Origin: Nitrospira sp.
GTDB lineage: Bacteria > Nitrospirota > Nitrospiria > Nitrospirales > Nitrospiraceae
DNA: 64,000 bases
Direction: 5' to 3'
Assembly: GCA_016788885.1 (NCBI GenBank)
Contig: JAEURX010000006.1
Location: forward strand, 1 to 64,000
In this document: positions 17,412 through 51,534 of the stretch, piece by piece
Numbering within the stretch: position 1 is the first letter of the stretch
Layout of the letters: each line of letters opens with the position of its first letter
Made by a program: the position numbers and the translations under genes
Notes under the pieces: model-generated
Told to the model about the DNA's origin: nothing
Databases searched by the model: none
What the model saw: the letters and a program-made list of their open reading frames with translations, nothing else

Positions 17412-18002
17412 ATGATCACCCTTCCTCAGACGTGCGAACAGGCGCTGCTTGAGCGGTTCCTGCGTGCCGAGGCCATGGCCCTGTGGGCGGTGCGCGCGGC
17501 GCAGACCCAAGACCTCCCGCGCCATGTGCAGACCTTTCTCCAGCGGCATGAGACGGATGAACAGGACCACCTCAAACAATTCGAGGGCATGCTCGGCACC
17601 CTGTCTCACCGACCGGCGACGCTGCCGACCGTGCCGTCACAGTGGGAGATGCTGGCGGTGCTGTTGTTTGGATACGAAGCGTTGGGGCTGGAATTTGCGT
17701 CGTTGTTGGCGGGCATCAGACCCGACCTGTCGGACATTCTGGACGATGAGCGGGTACATGTCGGATTTTTCGAGAAGGAACTGAGGACGATCCTTGCCGG
17801 CGGTGGCGTCGGGGCGCAACAGGCGCGAGAGACTGCGCGAACGTGGTGGAAGAAGTTGCCGCGCACGGTGGATCGGTACCTCAAGGACCCTGCATTGGCA
17901 CCTTATCGAACCGAGCTGCGAGGACAGATCCTGTCGGCGATCGGGCAACGGTTTGTCGCGCTCGGGCTGCTGGCCGAGGCCACGATTCCGGTTGCCTCCT
18001 GA
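17412..18002 (+). CDS. Ferritin-like domain protein
   Basis: A 196-residue all-helical protein. Pairs of acidic and His residues occur at helix positions expected for a diiron four-helix bundle: RAEAMALW (about 18), HETDEQDH (about 45), GYEALGLEF (about 90) and DDERVHVGFFEKEL (about 115). It fits the broad ferritin-like group rather than bacterioferritin or rubrerythrin (no rubredoxin domain, no haem Met). Possible roles are iron oxidation or hydroxylation. Co-directional with the small gene 8 bases upstream and followed by a strong hairpin. Confidence 0.65.
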   Translation: MITLPQTCEQALLERFLRAEAMALWAVRAAQTQDLPRHVQTFLQRHETDEQDHLKQFEGMLGTLSHRPATLPTVPSQWEMLAVLLFGYEALGLEFASLLAGIRPDLSDILDDERVHVGFFEKELRTILAGGGVGAQQARETARTWWKKLPRTVDRYLKDPALAPYRTELRGQILSAIGQRFVALGLLAEATIPVAS

Positions 18003-18024
18003 CAATTACGAGTCCCTCTGACCG

Positions 18025-18055
18025 TGCGGGATGATCCCTAGGACCATCCCGCACG
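18025..18055. terminator. Hairpin terminator, 14-bp stem
   Basis: GTGCGGGATGATCC (18025-18038) pairs with GGACCATCCCGCAC (18042-18055) over 14 positions with one mismatch (G-U in RNA of one strand) and a 3-base loop. It lies 22 bases after the ferritin-like stop. No long T-run follows, but the stem is strong. Confidence 0.7.
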
Positions 18056-18157
18056 CTCGTTGGTTCTATGCGTGTCGTAGTTCGTTGCGGAAACACTGGC
18101 CGGTTGTGTCATGGTTTGTGCTGTGCTCCAGGTGTCGGTTCACGTCAGCACAAAGTG

Positions 18158-18280
18158 CAGGATGCGCAAAAAGGCAGTCCAGCAAGGCCGCAACGAGCGA
18201 AGAGGCGAGTCGTACTCTCGTGGTACGGTGAGCCTCTAAGTGACGCGAGCACGCCGCTGGCGGACGTTTTCCGCATCCTG
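18158..18280 (+). repeat. Structured intergenic element, copy 1
   Basis: A 123-bp element bounded by exact inverted repeats CAGGATGCG (18158-18166) and CGCATCCTG (18272-18280), extended by C-AAAA/TTTT-C next to them. Inside are AGCAAGGCCGCA, a hairpin (CGTAC with GTACG, flanked by AGAGGC/GCCTCT) and CGAGCACGC. It ends directly at the stop codon of the porin gene. Two further members are at 34457-34583 (opposite orientation) and 49007-49126. The role could be termination, mRNA protection or a mobile non-autonomous repeat. Confidence 0.75.
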
Positions 18281-19597
18281 TTAGAACTGTACATTCCCGT
18301 TGATCGCCGCCAACACCTGATTCTTATTCAGGCCATCGTTGAAGGGCTGTCGTTGCCCGTCGAACCAGTCGGCACGGACTTCGGGACGGATCAGCACGTT
18401 GGGATGCGGCCGGTAGTTGAGGCCGACGCTGACCGAGTAGAAGGAGCCGGCGAACGGTCCGAGGTTCGGGTTGTCACGGACCGGGTTGCCGCCGACGCGA
18501 GTGCCGGCCTCGTCGCGCATCCATTCGAAACGAAGTCCCGCCCGCACCTCGTCGGTGAGGGCATAGTAGAGGTAGTTGTCGATGCCGTACCAGCGCGCGG
18601 TGCCGCCGTCGAGCCGGCCCTGGTTCTGATAGGCATAGTGGTGGTGGAGGACATATTCCCAGCGCTCCGCCGGATGCAGCGTGAAGATCGCACTGTAGCG
18701 GGTGCGGGTTTCAAACTGCGTGGCGACGGCGCTGGGTTCGTTTCCGGTGGCCATCGAGAAGGAGAGCGACCAGAAATCCTGTGGGGCGGTGTACTTGATG
18801 CTGGCGAGACCCGTGGCGCTGTCTTTGTAGCGGTCCAATGAGTCCCATCCATTGACCACGCCGCCTTGCAGGGTGACCCGGTCATTCACGTGCCACGTCG
18901 CCAAGCCGCCCCAGTGGGTGAACGGTCCGGCGAACTGATAGGCGTAGGATTTGGAATAGAAGAAGTTGTTGATCGACGGCACGCCTTCATACCCGATGAT
19001 CGTGTAGAAGTGTCCGACCTTGACGGAAAAGGTCTGGTTGCCGATTTCCGCATAGGCTTGCGGCATGGCCAGCCCATAGTGTTGGCCCTGTGCGTTCCAG
19101 CGCTGCGCGCCGTTCTCCCGCCGCTCGACCCCGTTGCTCTGCGTCAGGAAGTAATCGTAGCCGTACATGAAATCAAGGCGTCCGCCGATGCCCCAGTTGC
19201 TGCCCGTCGCCGTCAACGGCTTCTCGACGATCATGTACAACTGGTTGAGGACCGGGATATCGCGGTCGATCGCGTTGTATGGTCCGTTGAAATTGCTGCT
19301 CGGGCTGCTGGCGTTGTAGGTGTATCCACCGTCGATCCACCCCCGGACGCGCAGGAAGCCGTCTTGCGGGAGAAAACGACGAATGCCCTTCTCGTCCGCG
19401 TGCCAGAGGGAATCGGTCCACAGCGGGTCGGATGTTGGACTCGCCTCTACGCCGGACGTTTGCGCGGAGAACACGGGCGCGGACGTATCGCCCAACGACA
19501 CTCCGGTGGGTAACGATTGACCGTAGGCGGCTCCGGTGCCACCGCTGACTGTGAGGACCATAGCCATGATGAACCTGTTCACATGCGTCTTCGACAT
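18281..19597 (-). CDS. Outer-membrane beta-barrel porin (OmpL/bbp2-like)
   Basis: A 438-residue protein with a signal peptide (cut after about residue 26, AAYGQS). Most of it consists of alternating amphipathic strands rich in Tyr, Trp and Gly (RVRGWIDGGYTYN, FSVKVGHFYTIIGYEG, SVSVGLNYRPHPNVLIRPEVRADW), and it ends in Phe (NVQF), the usual C-terminal signal for barrel assembly. This matches the putative porin family DUF1597/bbp2. AGGAGG lies 11 bases before the ATG. Probably a diffusion porin; solute unknown. The upstream 267 bases hold no gene I can see. Confidence 0.8.
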   Translation of the reverse strand: MSKTHVNRFIMAMVLTVSGGTGAAYGQSLPTGVSLGDTSAPVFSAQTSGVEASPTSDPLWTDSLWHADEKGIRRFLPQDGFLRVRGWIDGGYTYNASSPSSNFNGPYNAIDRDIPVLNQLYMIVEKPLTATGSNWGIGGRLDFMYGYDYFLTQSNGVERRENGAQRWNAQGQHYGLAMPQAYAEIGNQTFSVKVGHFYTIIGYEGVPSINNFFYSKSYAYQFAGPFTHWGGLATWHVNDRVTLQGGVVNGWDSLDRYKDSATGLASIKYTAPQDFWSLSFSMATGNEPSAVATQFETRTRYSAIFTLHPAERWEYVLHHHYAYQNQGRLDGGTARWYGIDNYLYYALTDEVRAGLRFEWMRDEAGTRVGGNPVRDNPNLGPFAGSFYSVSVGLNYRPHPNVLIRPEVRADWFDGQRQPFNDGLNKNQVLAAINGNVQF

Positions 19598-32554: not shown

Positions 32555-32904
32555 GCGCCAGCCTTTGTCGACCCAGGCACGAGGCCTCACTGCGGCATGA
32601 AATCGCCGCAGGGCGGGTGTCTTCTCAAGACTTCGAGTGTTACTTGATTGATGGAATGCGCCGGCTTCGGCCGATGCGCCACTACGATGCGAAGGGTATC
32701 ACAACGTCAAGACTCATGCTAGCCCGGAATCGTGGGTAAAAGGCTTGCCCGTCCATTCAAATGTGCAGGCGTGCGGCAGGGAAGTCGAGGCGGTCAGAGC
32801 CCCGCTCAACTTGCAGTGGCGTCGAGGCATCTGCTATTGTCACGGCGTTTTTTCGTCCAATGTGATCCCACCCACAACGATATCCATAGTTGAAGGAGTT
32901 CATC
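32555..32904. other. Divergent intergenic region with a UUCG-loop hairpin
   Basis: About 350 bases between the OmpA-family gene and purH, transcribed apart. A hairpin at 32658-32679 (GCGC-CGGC, loop TTCG, GCCG, two-base bulge, GCGC) is present. No gene is supported, and no close consensus promoter was found for purH, only weak TTG-type boxes near 32810-32840. Confidence 0.45.
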
Positions 32905-34458
32905 ATGGCCAGCATTGCGCGGGCACTGATCAGTGTTTCTGACAAGACGGGAGTCATCGATATGGCCAAGGGATTGGCGGCCCTTGGTGCGGAAGTGTTG
33001 TCGACTGGCGGTACGGCCAAAGCTCTGCGTGACGCGGGCGTGGCGGTGACCGACGTCGCAGCGTACACCGGCTCCCCGGAGATTCTCGACGGGCGCGTGA
33101 AGACCCTGCACCCGAAAATTCACGGCGGGTTGCTCGGCCGTCGGGGCGTACCTGCTCACGTGACGCAGATGCAGCAGCATGGCATCGGCAACATCGATGT
33201 CGTCGTGGTGAATTTGTATCCGTTCGAATCGACGATCGCCAAGCCGAATTGTCCGTTTGAGGAAGCGATTGAGAATATCGATATCGGCGGGCCGTCGATG
33301 TTGCGCTCTGCCGCGAAGAACCATGAGGATGTGCTCGTGGTCGTCGATCCTGCCGACTACGGTCGCGTGTTGGAGGCATTGAAGGCCGGATCAGTCACGC
33401 CGGCCTTGCGACGTGAATTGGCCATGAAAGTGTTTCAGCACACCGCGCGCTACGACAGTTTGATCGCGGGTTACCTCGAAAAGCAGGTGCAGGGGAGCGA
33501 GGTGAAATTCCCGGCCATTCTCTCGCTGCAATTCGAGCGCGTGGAGACGCTCCGCTATGGAGAGAACCCCCACCAGCAGGGCGCCTTCTATCGCGAATTG
33601 AACGCGAAGGAGCCGGCGGTGTCGCGCGGAAAGATCCTGCATGGCAAGGCCATGTCCTACAATAATTTTCTGGATGCGAATTCCGCGCTCGAACTGGTGA
33701 AGGAGTTTGATCAGACGGCGGTGGCCATCATCAAGCACAACAATCCCTGTGGCTGTGCGTTGGGCGCAACGCCGGTTGAGGCATATGTGAAGGCGCGTGC
33801 GACGGATCCCGTCTCGGCCTTCGGCGGCGTGATTGCGTTCAATCGCCAGGTGGATCTGGCTGCGGCGAAAGAGATCACCTCGACCTTCGTGGAGGTCGTC
33901 ATTGCGCCGGGGTTTGCCGAAGATGCCTTGGCCGAACTCAAACGGAAGAAGGACATCCGGTTGCTGGATGTTGGGCCTCTGAGCAAGGCTACCGCTGAAG
34001 GGTATGATCTGAAGAAATTGGTCGGAGGGCTGATCGTGCAGGATCGGGACCTCGGTGTGATCAAGGACATCAAGGCCCTGGCCGTACCGACCGCGCGCAA
34101 ACCGACCGAAGAGGAATATGCGGCCTGCGCCTTCGCCTGGGTGGTGTGTAAACACGTGAAGTCGAACGCCATCATCTATGGGCGTCCCGGCGAAATCGTG
34201 GGTATCGGTGCCGGCCAGATGAGCCGCGTCGATTCGGTGAAGCTCGCGGCGATGAAGGCCCAATCGTCCGTGAAGGGCTGCGTGATGGCATCCGACGCGT
34301 TCTTTCCGTTCCGTGACGGGATCGATGCGGCGGCAGAAGCCGGCATTACCTGTGTGATTCAGCCAGGCGGATCCATCCGTGACCCCGAAGTGACGAAGGC
34401 GGTGGATGAGCATGGGATGGCGATGATTCTCACCGGTATGCGCCACTTCCGCCATTGA
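32905..34458 (+). CDS. purH: Bifunctional AICAR transformylase/IMP cyclohydrolase
   Basis: A 517-residue enzyme for the last two purine steps, from AICAR to FAICAR to IMP. The N-terminal IMPCHase (MGS-like fold) has [21 protein letters not shown] and the substrate loop TLHPKIHGG. The AICARFT half carries [40 protein letters not shown] (catalytic Lys-His) and ends [18 protein letters not shown] precedes the ATG at 32905. purD follows after a 212-base gap that holds a structured element. Confidence 0.97.
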
Positions 34459-34583
34459 GGGACGTTGAAACGGGCCTCCGACTGCGTTCTCGGCTCGAAA
34501 AAAATCCTCAACGTAGCCCTGAGGCTACGCCTCCGGTTTTTTCTCGTCTGTGGCCTTGTCGGTAGACCCGTTTGAACGCCCTC
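34457..34583 (-). repeat. Structured intergenic element, copy 2 (reverse orientation)
   Basis: A 127-bp element starting in the purH stop codon. Terminal inverted repeats GAGGGACGTTGAAACGGG (34457-34474) and CCCGTTTGAACGCCCTC (34567-34583) pair apart from one indel and a C-C (or G-G) mismatch beside AAA. Read on the minus strand it contains ACAAGGCCACAGACGAG, an inner hairpin (CGTAGCC/GGCTACG) and CGAGAACGC, matching copies 1 and 3. It lies between purH and purD and could attenuate purD expression. Confidence 0.75.
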
Positions 34584-34670: not shown

Positions 34671-35948
34671 GTGAAGATTCTAGTTGTCGGCAGTGGTGGG
34701 CGGGAACATGCCATGGTGTGGAAGCTCGCCCAGAGTCCGAGAAAGCCGCAGATCTTTTGTGCGCCGGGCAATGCCGGGATCGAAGGACTGGCGACCTGTG
34801 TGCCGATCAAGGCGGATGACATCGCCGGACTCAAGGACTTTGCGTTACAGGAGCAGATCGATCTCACGGTAGTCGGTCCGGAAGCGCCGCTCGCGCTTGG
34901 GATTGCCGATGAGTTCCGGAAGGCGCGTTTGAAAATCTTCGGTCCGACCAAAGCTGCTGCGAGGCTGGAGTCGAGCAAAAGCTTTTCGAAGGAGATCATG
35001 ACCGCCAACCGGATTCCGACCGCAGTCTCGCGAAGTTTCGAGCAGATGGATCAGGCGCTGGCCTACCTGGATGCGCAGCCTGTGCCGATCGTGGTGAAGG
35101 CCGACGGGCTGGCGCAGGGCAAGGGGGTGGTCGTGGCCACCACGCGCGAGGACGCCAAGCAGGCGGTGCGCGATGCGATGGAGAAGTCCGTCTTCGGCCA
35201 GGCAGGAGAGCGGGTGCTGATCGAGGAGTTTCTCGACGGGGAAGAACTGACCATCATGGCGTTTACCGACGGGAAGACCGTCGTGCCGATGATTCCGGCA
35301 CAGGATCACAAGCGGGTGGGGGACGGAGATGCCGGTCCCAACACCGGCGGAATGGGTGCCTACGCTCCGGCTCCCATTGCCACGGCTGCGCTTCGTGAAC
35401 AGGTCACACGGCAGGTCCTTCAGCCCACCGTCGATGCGCTGGCGCGCCTGGGCTGTCCGTTTCAAGGTGTGCTCTATGCGGGCCTCATGATCGTCAAGGG
35501 GACGCCGTATGTCTTGGAGTTCAACGCGCGAATGGGAGATCCCGAAACCGAAGTCGTGTTGCCGCTCTTGCAGACGGACCTGCTCGAAGTCATGGAGGCG
35601 GTGGTTGAGCATCGTCTCGATCAGCTCACCGTGGAATGGCGGCAGGAGACGGCGGTGTGCGTGGTCCTGACGTCTCCAGGGTATCCGGGCGCCTATCCGA
35701 CTGGATTGCCGATTCAAGGATTGCCTGCTCCGTCGAATACGGCACCGATCGCCGTGTTTCACGCCGGCACCAAGCGGGATGCTGAGCAGGTGGTCACTGC
35801 CGGAGGGCGAGTGTTGGCCGTCACGGCCTGGGCGCCGTCGCTCCTCCAAGCGAGAACAGAAGTGTATCAGGCGGTGCCGGCGATTTCGTTCCAAGGTCGG
35901 CACTATCGGACCGATATCGCGCATCGAGCGCTGCCGCGCAATTCCTGA
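34671..35948 (+). CDS. purD: Phosphoribosylamine-glycine ligase
   Basis: A 425-residue GARS enzyme that joins glycine to phosphoribosylamine with ATP in purine synthesis. It begins [19 protein letters not shown] at a GTG codon. ATP-grasp features include [42 protein letters not shown] and [11 protein letters not shown] (metal-binding Glu and Asn). Standard length. It probably shares regulation with purH, 212 bases upstream. Confidence 0.96.
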
Positions 35949-48147: not shown

Positions 48148-48981
48148 TTACCGGACCGGTTGTGTGGCGGCTGCGTCGCATATACGTAATACCCGTTCAA
48201 GGAGTGAATGAAGCGCATGAAGTGGAACCATGTTGGGTCCATCGGACAGGGCGGAATCGGGATCCGGATGCACTTCCATGAAAAACCCGTCGCAGCCGGC
48301 TCCTGCCGCCGCGCATGCCAAGGGTTCGACGAATTCACGCTGGCCGCCGGATTTGGTGCCGCCCCCGCCCGGCAGCTGCACGCTATGGGTGGCATCGAAG
48401 ACCACCGGATAGCCGAAACGGCGCATGATGGGAAACGAACGCATGTCGACGACCAGATTGTTGTAGCCGAAGGAAGATCCGCGCTCCGTCAGGACAATCC
48501 GGTGGTTGCCGGCATCCTCCACCTTCTTGATGGCATTCCCCATTTCCGGCGGCGACAGGAATTGCCCTTTCTTGATGTTCACGACTTTGCCGGTCTTTGC
48601 GGCAGCGATCAACAGGTCGGTCTGTCGGCAGAGAAACGCAGGAATCTGCAGGATGTCGACCACCTGCCCGGCCTCGGTCGCCTGATCCTCTGTGTGCACG
48701 TCGGTCAAAATCGGGACACCGATCTGTTGCTTGATCTTGGCCAGGATGGCAAGTCCCTTCTCTAATCCAGGTCCGCGAAAAGACGAGATGGAGGTGCGAT
48801 TGGCTTTATCGAAGGACGACTTGAACACGTAGGGCATGCCGAGCGATGTAGTGATTTCCGCGATGCGTCCCGCCGTGTCCATGGCGAGCTGCTCGCTTTC
48901 AATCACGCAAGGTCCGGCGATCAAAAACGGACGATGGCCCGCCCCGATCTTAAATTGTCCCAAATCAACTTCGTACGCCAT
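48148..48981 (-). CDS. kdsA: 3-deoxy-8-phosphooctulonate synthase
   Basis: A 277-residue aldolase-type synthase that condenses arabinose-5-P and PEP to Kdo-8-P. It has the motif [70 protein letters not shown] and [13 protein letters not shown]. The ATG at 48981 (MAYEVDLG) is preferred because the region beyond it is occupied by a structured element; a TTG at 49017 is the alternative. Whether it is metal-dependent is not decided: no Cys is seen at the position of the metallo-KdsA ligand. Confidence 0.94.
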
Positions 48982-49006
48982 AATCTCCGAGTTATTGATG
49001 GTCCAT

Positions 49007-49126
49007 GGGAGGCTCAAACTGATCTTTCAGCAAGGCCGCAGACGAGGCAGAACCGCAGGCGTAGCGGAGCTACGTCGAGGATTGTGCCGAGTCGAGAACG
49101 CCGATGAAAGGCAGTTTCAGCCTCCC
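49007..49126 (+). repeat. Structured intergenic element, copy 3
   Basis: A 120-bp element bounded by GGGAGGCTCAAACTG (49007-49021) and CAGTTTCAGCCTCCC (49112-49126), which pair over 14 of 15 bases with one C-C mismatch before AAA. Inside are AGCAAGGCCGCAGACGAG, a hairpin (CGTAGC/GCTACG, loop GGA) and CGAGAACGC, as in copies 1 and 2. It fills the space between pyrG and kdsA, both minus-strand, and begins 5 bases from the pyrG stop. Confidence 0.75.
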
Positions 49127-49130
49127 TTAC

Positions 49131-50732
49131 TCAATGGCCGCATTTGCGGCGTAGTGCCGCCCCGACAAATCCACTAAACAAAGGATGCGGGTGATGCGGC
49201 CGCGACTTGTATTCCGGATGAAACTGCGTCGCCAGGAACCAGGGATGGTTCTGCAGTTCAACGATTTCAACCAGGCGCCCATCCGGCGACAGGCCGCTCA
49301 GAATCAGTCCTTGTGCCGTCAATTGCTCGCGATAGGCATTATTGAATTCATACCGGTGGCGATGCCGCTCGCGCACTTCGCTGACGCCGTACATTTTTTG
49401 CGCCAGCGTGCCCTCTCCCAAGGTACAGGCGTAGGCGCCCAGGCGCATCGTGCCGCCCTTGTCGTTGACGGATTGCTGGTCGGACATGAGATGAATGACC
49501 GGATGCGGCGACTGCGCATCGAACTCCGCGCTGTTCGCGCCGTTGAGTCCGGCGACATTGCGCGCAAACTCGATGGTCGCGCACTGCATGCCCAGACACA
49601 GACCGAGGAATGGAATCTGATGTTCCCGCGCATACTGGATGGTGACAATCTTGCCTTCGATCCCGCGTGAGCCGAACCCGCCGGGAATGAGAATGCCGTC
49701 CGCCTCGCGCAGGATTCGCTCCGTCCCCTGCCGTTCGACGTCTTCGGATTCGATCCACGTCACGTTGACGCGGGTTTCATGGTCGATCCCGCCGTGCACC
49801 AGGGCCTCCGCCAAGCTCTTATAACATTCTTTCAGTCCGGCATATTTTCCGACGAGCGCGATGGACACTTCATGCTTGGGATGCTTGATCTTCTGCACCA
49901 TCGCATCCCATTCGCGCAGATTGGGCGGCCCGGTTTCAAGCTTCAACTGCCGTACGATCAGTTCATCCAACCCTTCCTTGCGGAAAACGATCGGCACTTC
50001 GTAGATGGTCTCGACATCCTTGGCCGTGATGACCGCATCTTTCTCGACGTTGCAAAACATGGCGATCTTCGCCTTGAGTTCCGGCGGAAGGTAGCGATCC
50101 GTGCGGCACAGCAGAATGTTCGGTTGAATACCGATTTCGCGCAGCTTGTTGACGGAATGCTGGGTCGGTTTGGTTTTCAACTCACCGGCGGCGCCGATAT
50201 ACGGGACGAGGGTCAGGTGCACGTAGAGCACATTGTCCCGCCCCACGTCGTAGGGAATCTGCCGAATGGCTTCCAGAAACGGCAGGCTTTCGATGTCGCC
50301 CACCGTGCCGCCGATCTCCACGATCGTGACGTCCATGCCTTGTGAGGTGCGCATGATACATTGCTTGATCTCGTCGGTGACATGCGGCACCACCTGCACC
50401 GTTCCGCCCAGATAATCACCCCGCCGTTCCTTCGTGATAACCGAGTGATAGATCCTGCCGGTCGTGTAGTTGTTTTCGCGCGTCAGCGTCAGCGAGGTGT
50501 AGCGTTCGTAATGCCCCAGGTCGAGATCGGTCTCTGCCCCGTCTTCGGTGACGTAGACCTCGCCGTGCTGGTAGGGATTCATGGTCCCGGGGTCGACGTT
50601 GATGTAGGGGTCGAGCTTCAAGAAGGTGATTTTCAACCCGCGGCTTTCCAGCAGATTCCCAATGGACGCAGACGCCAGTCCCTTTCCGAGCGACGAGACG
50701 ACACCCCCGGTGACAAAGATCAGCTTGCTCAT
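49131..50732 (-). CDS. pyrG: CTP synthase
   Basis: A 533-residue enzyme that aminates UTP to CTP with glutamine and ATP. The synthetase domain begins [21 protein letters not shown] and has [20 protein letters not shown]. The glutaminase domain has the oxyanion PGGFGSRG, nucleophile Cys in FLGLCLGMQ and the HPEY His-Glu. Starts at 50732, with AAGGTG upstream. CTP is used to activate Kdo, which fits its place between kdsB and kdsA. Confidence 0.97.
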
Positions 50733-50763
50733 CGTGGCACCTTCTTGTGAATGCGGCCAATAG

Positions 50764-51534
50764 TCATGGTTGAGTGCTCCCCGGTCCGCTCGTCTGGGCG
50801 CGAAGTTGCGCGAGGGCCACGGGTACGTCCTCGGGGCTATCGATGCGCAACGACGCATGAGAGGTCTCCCAGACGCGAATCCGGATTCCGTTCTCCAGTG
50901 CGCGTAGCTGCTCCAGTTTTTCCGCCTCTTCCAGAATCCCGGTCGGTAAGGCCGTCAGGCGCGCGAGGGTCTCGCGCGTGTAGATATACAGACCCAGGTG
51001 AATGAAATGTAATCCCGGCACGGCCGACCGTTTTGGATCGTCGCGCACCAGCGGGATCGGCGCTCGCGAAAAATAGAGGGCATGGCCTTCCCGGTCGGTC
51101 GTCACTTTGACCACCCCGGGGTTGTGTAGGTCTGCATCGCTGTCGATCCGTCTTTTTAACGTCCCCATTGGTGCGTCGCTTGTCAGAAATGGTTCCACCA
51201 GGTCCGTGATCAGGTCGGGATGGAGAAGAATTTCGTCGCCTTGCAGGTCGACGAAACACCCGCCGGTTCGAGATTGTGCGACGGCGGCTACGCGATCTGT
51301 GCCGGTACGATAGGGCTCGGTCATGATAAGCACCTTCCCCCCGAATTGCTCAACGGCGGCCTTGATGCGCTCGTCATCCGTGGCAACCAGCACCTCGTCC
51401 ACCACGCGGCAGGCCTTGGCCTGTTCATACACATGTTGGATCATCGGCTTGCCCATCAGTTCGACCAGGGGCTTGCCCGGAAATCGAGAAGATCCGTAAC
51501 GGGCAGGAATGACCACCGTAACCGGACGTTTCAC
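50764..51534 (-). CDS. kdsB: 3-deoxy-manno-octulosonate cytidylyltransferase
   Basis: A 256-residue nucleotidyltransferase activating Kdo with CTP. Signature segments are [17 protein letters not shown] (CTP loop), [19 protein letters not shown] and [12 protein letters not shown]. The GTG at 51534 directly follows the stop of the kinase gene (TGACGTG), so translation is coupled; an ATG at 51555 is possible. Clustered with kdsA, kdsD and pyrG. Confidence 0.94.

Follow-up and report, generated by a model that had tools for sequence, protein, structure and literature searches.

A covarying hairpin family of Nitrospira as the left part of an IS5-type MITE, with some copies that appear to be recruited by the host

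The folded elements detected in the window, which is the whole stretch of 64,000 nucleotides of Nitrospira DNA analysed here, belong to a family of IS5-type MITEs with a covarying left hairpin, and some copies of this family appear to be recruited by the host. The genus Nitrospira contains main nitrite oxidisers. The 123-nt element is very likely the left hairpin of a ~200-bp non-autonomous transposon (MITE) rather than a free-standing element. Transposon origin combined with recruitment of the hairpin is the best explanation of the results as a whole, with a probability of about 70%. According to this explanation, the ~200-bp MITE would be moved by an IS5-family transposase and would insert at YTAR, mostly CTAG or TTAG, with duplication of these four base pairs. 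The outer hairpin arm would serve as one inverted end, and the remainder of ~75 nt would close with the other inverted end. After insertion, some hairpins, including two of those in the window (E2 and E3), would have come to serve the host as RNA elements, placed in the 3' untranslated region that separates two operon genes.

The three folded elements, E1, E2 and E3, are found where the initial annotation had placed them (Table 1). As it had described, their inner blocks are common to all three, and in the alignment their outer arms differ in sequence yet pair with each other. The C-C mismatch that it had reported is retained in 47 of the 48 good copies of the family. Each element also adjoins a stop codon, which is TAA at 18281-18283 on the minus strand for E1, TGA at 34456-34458 for E2, and TGA at 49131-49133 for E3. 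The TGA codon overlaps the hairpin arm by two bases in E2 and is a few bases off the arm in E3. The gene ending at E1 is porin-like (PF07642). The orientation in which the initial annotation read the elements is antisense to the adjoining gene in all three cases, and it is referred to below as the antisense orientation. The z values of the fold in this orientation, relative to dinucleotide shuffles, are -3.2 for E1, -7.2 for E2 and -7.5 for E3, and in either orientation none of 200 dinucleotide shuffles folds as well as the element itself. Distinct from these elements, a strong inverted repeat, CCGTGCGGGATGATCC CTAGG ACCATCCCGCACG, is located at 18019-18058, after the gene at 17412-18002 and facing E1. 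This repeat has a CCTAGG centre and resembles an ordinary gene-end hairpin.

Table 1. Positions of the elements and of the neighbouring genes in the window.
Feature	Position	Strand	Remarks
E1 left hairpin, 123 nt	18158..18280	+	Antisense to the porin-like gene 18281-19597, which ends at the E1 border
E1 decayed right part	18081..18157	+	Its outer end, TTCGTTGCGGAAACA, is similar to the inverted end CAGGTTGCGGAAAAA; from comparison with full copies
E1 left target copy CTAA	18281..18284	-	Includes the TAA stop of the gene 18281-19597
E2 hairpin	34457..34583	-	Directly 3' of the purH stop, ahead of purD; lacks the right part and the target duplication
E3 hairpin	49006..49127	+	A few nt past the pyrG stop, ahead of a DAHP/KDO-8-P synthase-type gene; lacks the right part
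purH	32890..34458	+	Upstream gene of E2
purD	34671..35948	+	Downstream gene of E2
pyrG (CTP synthase)	49131..50858	-	Upstream gene of E3
DAHP synthetase I family gene (kdsA-like)	48148..48981	-	Downstream gene of E3

The extent of the transposon unit is given by full copies from other genomes. Five copies in one relative (G023) are identical over 199 nt, with the identity extending ~76 nt past the hairpin, and all five are flanked by equal four bases on either side, either CTAG/CTAG or TTAG/TTAG. Because these copies are identical past the hairpin and are flanked in this way, the plan of the unit is YTAR, the 123-nt imperfect hairpin, ~75 nt, the inverted end and YTAR. The ends of full copies are inverted (CAGGATGCGGAAAAA/TTTTTCCGCAGCCTG) and are accompanied by a 4-bp YTAR target duplication. 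The terminal inverted repeats of full copies read CAGGATGCGGAAAAA at one end and TTTTTCCGCAACCTG or ...GCAGCCTG at the other. When 30 further loci were chosen from five congeners by a near-consensus left end, both ends were located in 15 of them, and the YTAR duplication is identical in 14 of these 15 loci, with a usual length of 199-201 bp. The host genome also contains complete units of 200-201 bp, flanked by CTAG at either end (for example, L054 and L051). Like a MITE, the unit is short (~200 bp), is present in many copies (~75 in the host genome) and contains no transposase gene. The initial annotation had proposed one mobile or regulatory family, and the YTAR target duplications and the identical copies bear out the mobile part of this proposal.

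E1 is a decayed full copy. Its other flank, CTAC (18077-18080), is a degraded match to the left target copy. The limits assigned to E1 by the initial annotation are therefore those of the hairpin, which stands as described, and not those of the longer decayed unit (~18081-18280) of which it is a part. E2 and E3 individually fall short of a MITE with both inverted ends and a duplication, because the hairpin alone is retained in them, without a right part or a target duplication. They are called decayed members of the family on the basis of hairpin homology.

Transposases with a DUF772 domain (PF05598) were searched for in relatives, and the flanks of these transposases were then scanned. In the congener G001, a 1,317-bp element is located at two sites (L121 and L132), with ends CAGGCTGCGGAAAAA and CTAG duplications. 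It encodes a 363-aa protein with the Pfam domains DUF772 and DDE_Tnp_1, which matches the NCBIfam model of the IS5 family (NF033581) with 285 bits, above the cut-off of 140. Several plasmid relatives of this transposase are annotated as IS5. This IS5-family element thus represents an autonomous partner with ends in common with the MITE, and the shared ends and duplications suggest that an IS5-family transposase moves the MITE. No PF05598 transposase is found in the host genome, so that the MITE has either ceased to move in the host or relies on a gene that the assembly does not contain. G004, a genome of the same genus, gives only 2 matches to the covariance model described below, as compared with ~50 or more in most congeners, and it contains 14 equal-scoring copies of another DUF772 transposase gene.

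The genome scan that the initial annotation had proposed was carried out with a covariance model (R1) built from E1, E2 and E3 alone, and it detects many further copies in both the host and its relatives. In the 3.92-Mb host genome, R1 matches 72 places (~75 copies) at E<0.01, including E1-E3, and 37 of them score >74 bits. This copy number is far above chance. Within the order, R1 has matches in 59 of 61 genomes, and its counts per genome are lower bounds. In an even draw of 198 genomes over the phylum, it matches 74, which comprise all the listed genomes of the host family and are scattered beyond it. A pattern scan of named genomes returns records from Nitrospira and Nitrospirae only. No Rfam family reaches its gathering score within the window, where E2 and E3 give only weak matches at chance level, and a known RNA family is rejected for this reason. 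A search of the literature on MITEs, palindromic repeats and structured RNAs of Nitrospira found no description of this hairpin family. Eight family hairpins are clustered in one orientation within 6 kb at L056:3776-9765 (G000 contig 10, 129775-135764), as tandem pairs and one triple with a spacing of only 4-25 nt. By eye, the genes next to this cluster are of the B12-binding radical-SAM type, together with one CBS-domain-like gene.

Of 69 copies in the host genome, 40 lie at most 6 nt from the stop codon of an open reading frame of at least 80 codons, and 26 of them are exactly flush with it. Among recent copies, a stop codon is present on one side or the other in 14 of 30, and in G023 three of the five copies are located at the stop of the right-side gene, as read by eye. 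Because YTAR contains TAG or TAA and the four base pairs are duplicated, the MITE often lands on a stop codon without changing the protein. About 35% of the YTAR sites outside genes in sampled host DNA are stop codons, according to rough gene calls. Comparison of this background with the 14 of 30 recent copies led us to reject recognition of the stop codon as such. Most of the stop adjacency is explained by the choice of YTAR as target and the loss of insertions inside genes. The initial annotation had noticed the stop adjacency correctly, but had seen neither the YTAR target as its main cause nor the longer transposon. Stop adjacency on the hairpin side is more frequent in older host copies (40 of 69) than in recent copies (10 of 30; Fisher p 0.03), and this excess is a weak sign of retention. 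The model scores of stop-adjacent copies do not differ from those of other copies (p 0.32). A YTAR target that contains TAG or TAA explains how the element enters operons harmlessly and how gene ends gain an RNA structure.

The initial annotation had taken compensatory change across the three copies as evidence for a selected fold, and the pairs do covary, with values far beyond those of shuffled and slid controls. In an alignment of 48 copies, which was fitted with R1 itself, 90.9% of the cells are paired, both partners have changed in 29 of 42 pairs, and the number of compensatory cells is 216. All 500 shuffles stay below these values, and the paired fraction in slid controls is 35-42%. A MAFFT alignment (A3, sense strand, folded with RNAalifold) gives fewer pairs and the same conclusion, with 20 of 27 pairs changed on both sides. 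These results indicate that the fold is selected in the 48-copy set. The inner loop is nearly invariant across copies.

Because matches to the model are biased to E3-like copies, a further sample of the orthologous gene junctions was drawn by means of the PyrG and PurH proteins. At pyrG|kdsA, a family hairpin is located directly 3' of the stop codon in most of the genus, and about half of these hairpins are of the E3 type, the others being of further types. E3-type hairpins diverge by 3.8% over 13 loci and by 4.1% over 10 protein-sampled loci, as compared with 38.8-39.9% at the fourfold sites of pyrG and 38.7% in the next 40 nt after the hairpin, and the hairpin divergence is lower than the fourfold divergence of pyrG in every pair. 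At purH|purD, the divergence of E2-type hairpins is 11.1%, as compared with 43.8% at fourfold sites. This single locus shows 21 compensatory pairs over 16 species, a number reached by none of 500 shuffles. Conservation at orthologous sites is thus beyond neutral expectation, and gene conversion could contribute to it. The fold is probably under selection at E2 and E3. The hairpin is not indispensable, because other types are present in some species and only collapsed remnants are left at pyrG|kdsA in G004 and G020. In these remnants (L175 in G004 and L172 in G020), the hairpin is reduced to its outer arms, such as GCAGGATGTTGAACATCCTGC in G020, and this looks like a clean deletion of the inner palindrome. 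In G014, G005 and G018 (L096, L086 and L089), a second, younger element is present just downstream of the E3-type hairpin at this junction. In family f2, the hairpin of G037 is flush with the TAG codon of purH, and the site is empty in the congener G049 (L216 and L218). The hairpin of G037 is an independent insertion at the purH stop codon.

It is rather unlikely that the family is a purely selfish MITE, of which the fold is selected only in transposition, the subfamilies simply spread, and the pyrG and purH copies are kept by chance or gene conversion. Consistent with such a MITE, recent copies already carry paired arms, and the subfamilies of the arms and of the inner part differ at one junction between species. 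Likewise, the distances between hairpins do not follow the fourfold distances (Spearman 0.00 and 0.22), so that gene conversion or transfer could explain part of the low divergence. At purH|purD of G010 (L205), the left arm is of one type and the remainder is of the E2 type, with the outer arms unpaired. This chimera points to recombination between types of hairpin. The similarity of the hairpins is probably due in part to gene conversion, because the hairpin distance does not track the fourfold distance and because of this chimera. Against a purely selfish MITE, E3-type hairpins are ~10 times more conserved than the fourfold sites and the adjoining 40 nt, and this conservation persists despite the loss of the right part and of the duplication.

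Transposon origin with recruitment of some hairpins would account for this conservation. Host use is inferred because the hairpin is strongly conserved at orthologous junctions, and a putative regulatory use, the other part of the original proposal, receives indirect support from the same conservation. By analogy with REP, a stem located at the stop codon or a few bases past it might set the decay or processing of the upstream part of the message, or might slow termination there. That the stem acts in this way at E2 and E3 is a tentative suggestion, somewhat short of an even chance. REP sequences located <16 nt from a stop codon lower translation in E. coli (PMC12306157), and the stem-loops of Correia/NEMIS and ERIC/IRU, which with RUP and RU-3 represent bacterial MITEs with long stem-loops, are reported for NEMIS and ERIC to change the stability or processing of the mRNA of neighbouring genes (PMC2229807).

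A role in the sense mRNA alone does not predict that the pairing energies favour the antisense orientation. This orientation is more stable in 42 of 48 copies with RNA parameters and in 41 of 48 with DNA parameters, and in the pairs common to both folds it has 74 G-U cells to 40 A-C cells. Two apical pairs (59-85 and 60-84) are mostly G-U. In the antisense orientation, 92 of their 96 cells are standard pairs, and the G-U cells would be C-A in the sense orientation. In the two orthologue alignments, the energy favours the antisense orientation (-94.9 versus -87.8 and -91.9 versus -80.4), and the wobble counts do not discriminate between the strands. The hairpin might therefore act in the other strand, as a structured RNA or as a fold of single-stranded DNA with a binding site in the inner loop AAGGCCGCAG / CGAGAAC, and the near invariance of this loop agrees with such a role. 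This reading is nevertheless improbable, since the region in which the putative transcript would start lacks conservation at pyrG|kdsA and since, in the purH set alone, the G-U cells are not fewer in the sense orientation (17 versus 11), where A-C wobble could fill the columns. On this evidence, the strand that folds is somewhat more likely to be the one antisense to the upstream gene, and the choice between RNA and DNA is undecided. It would go a good deal further, and is doubtful, to regard the E2- and E3-type hairpins as a novel type of regulatory RNA of transposon origin, which would act on the antisense strand with its fixed uneven inner loop as a binding site and would have been recruited repeatedly at pyrG|kdsA and purH|purD.

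It is very unlikely that the hairpins are transcription terminators. Mobile-type copies do have a run of A before and a run of T after a G+C-rich stem, and many copies are located past stop codons. In contrast, E2 and E3 have only AAA/TTT, with the T run inside the stem, 23 of 39 stop-adjacent copies are followed by a co-directional gene, often at <60 nt, and E2, E3 and the copies at urea-transport and urease genes lie within gene clusters. Terminators are rejected because the elements are located inside gene clusters and their T runs are short or paired.

Integron attC sites can be dismissed: as in these sites, the structure is kept while the sequence varies, and the elements are folded, follow stop codons and are clustered in places, but their neighbours are core operon genes and not cassettes, no GTTRRRY core is seen by eye at the ends, and neither the inverted ends, which are of IS type, nor the target duplication of 4 bp fits.

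The family resembles REP/BIME sequences in that it has many copies, is folded and is often located just past stop codons. REP sequences are defined as hairpins of 21-65 nt with a GT[AG]G foot (PMC6006769). The present hairpin is ~125 nt long (123 nt when measured against this definition), is flanked on the left by CTAG or YTAR, and has no GT[AG]G foot. It further differs in its 4-bp YTAR duplication and its IS5-type ends. No Y1 transposase (TnpA-REP, PF01797) is found in the host genome, although control genomes do match this model, and REP sequences mobilised by a RAYT protein are rejected on this ground. We infer, by analogy, that the hairpin may work like REP or ERIC even though it fails the tests that define REP.

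Compared with NEMIS, ERIC, RUP and RU-3, the family is similarly composed of MITEs of 100-200 bp with many copies, inverted ends and a short target duplication, which are mostly intergenic and of which the transcript folds into a long stem. It is distinguished from these known MITEs by the YTAR duplication, by a stem that is confined to the left 123 nt, with a tail of 75 nt behind it, by the covariation of the arms, and by the conservation of some copies at orthologous operon junctions. With IS5-family insertion sequences it shares the inverted ends, the YTAR target and its duplication, and the transposase in G001. The hairpin unit differs from them in that it encodes no transposase, and the full-length insertion sequence is without the 123-nt hairpin. 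The hairpin can be traced from fresh, identical copies with intact duplications to old copies that are near-constant between biosynthetic genes across the genus. A long-hairpin subtype of 189-190 nt, with an extra inner segment of ~65 nt, is located at L039:2652-2841, L061:10553-10742 and L072:16663-16851, and is present also in G018 and G023 (L253, L255 and L265).
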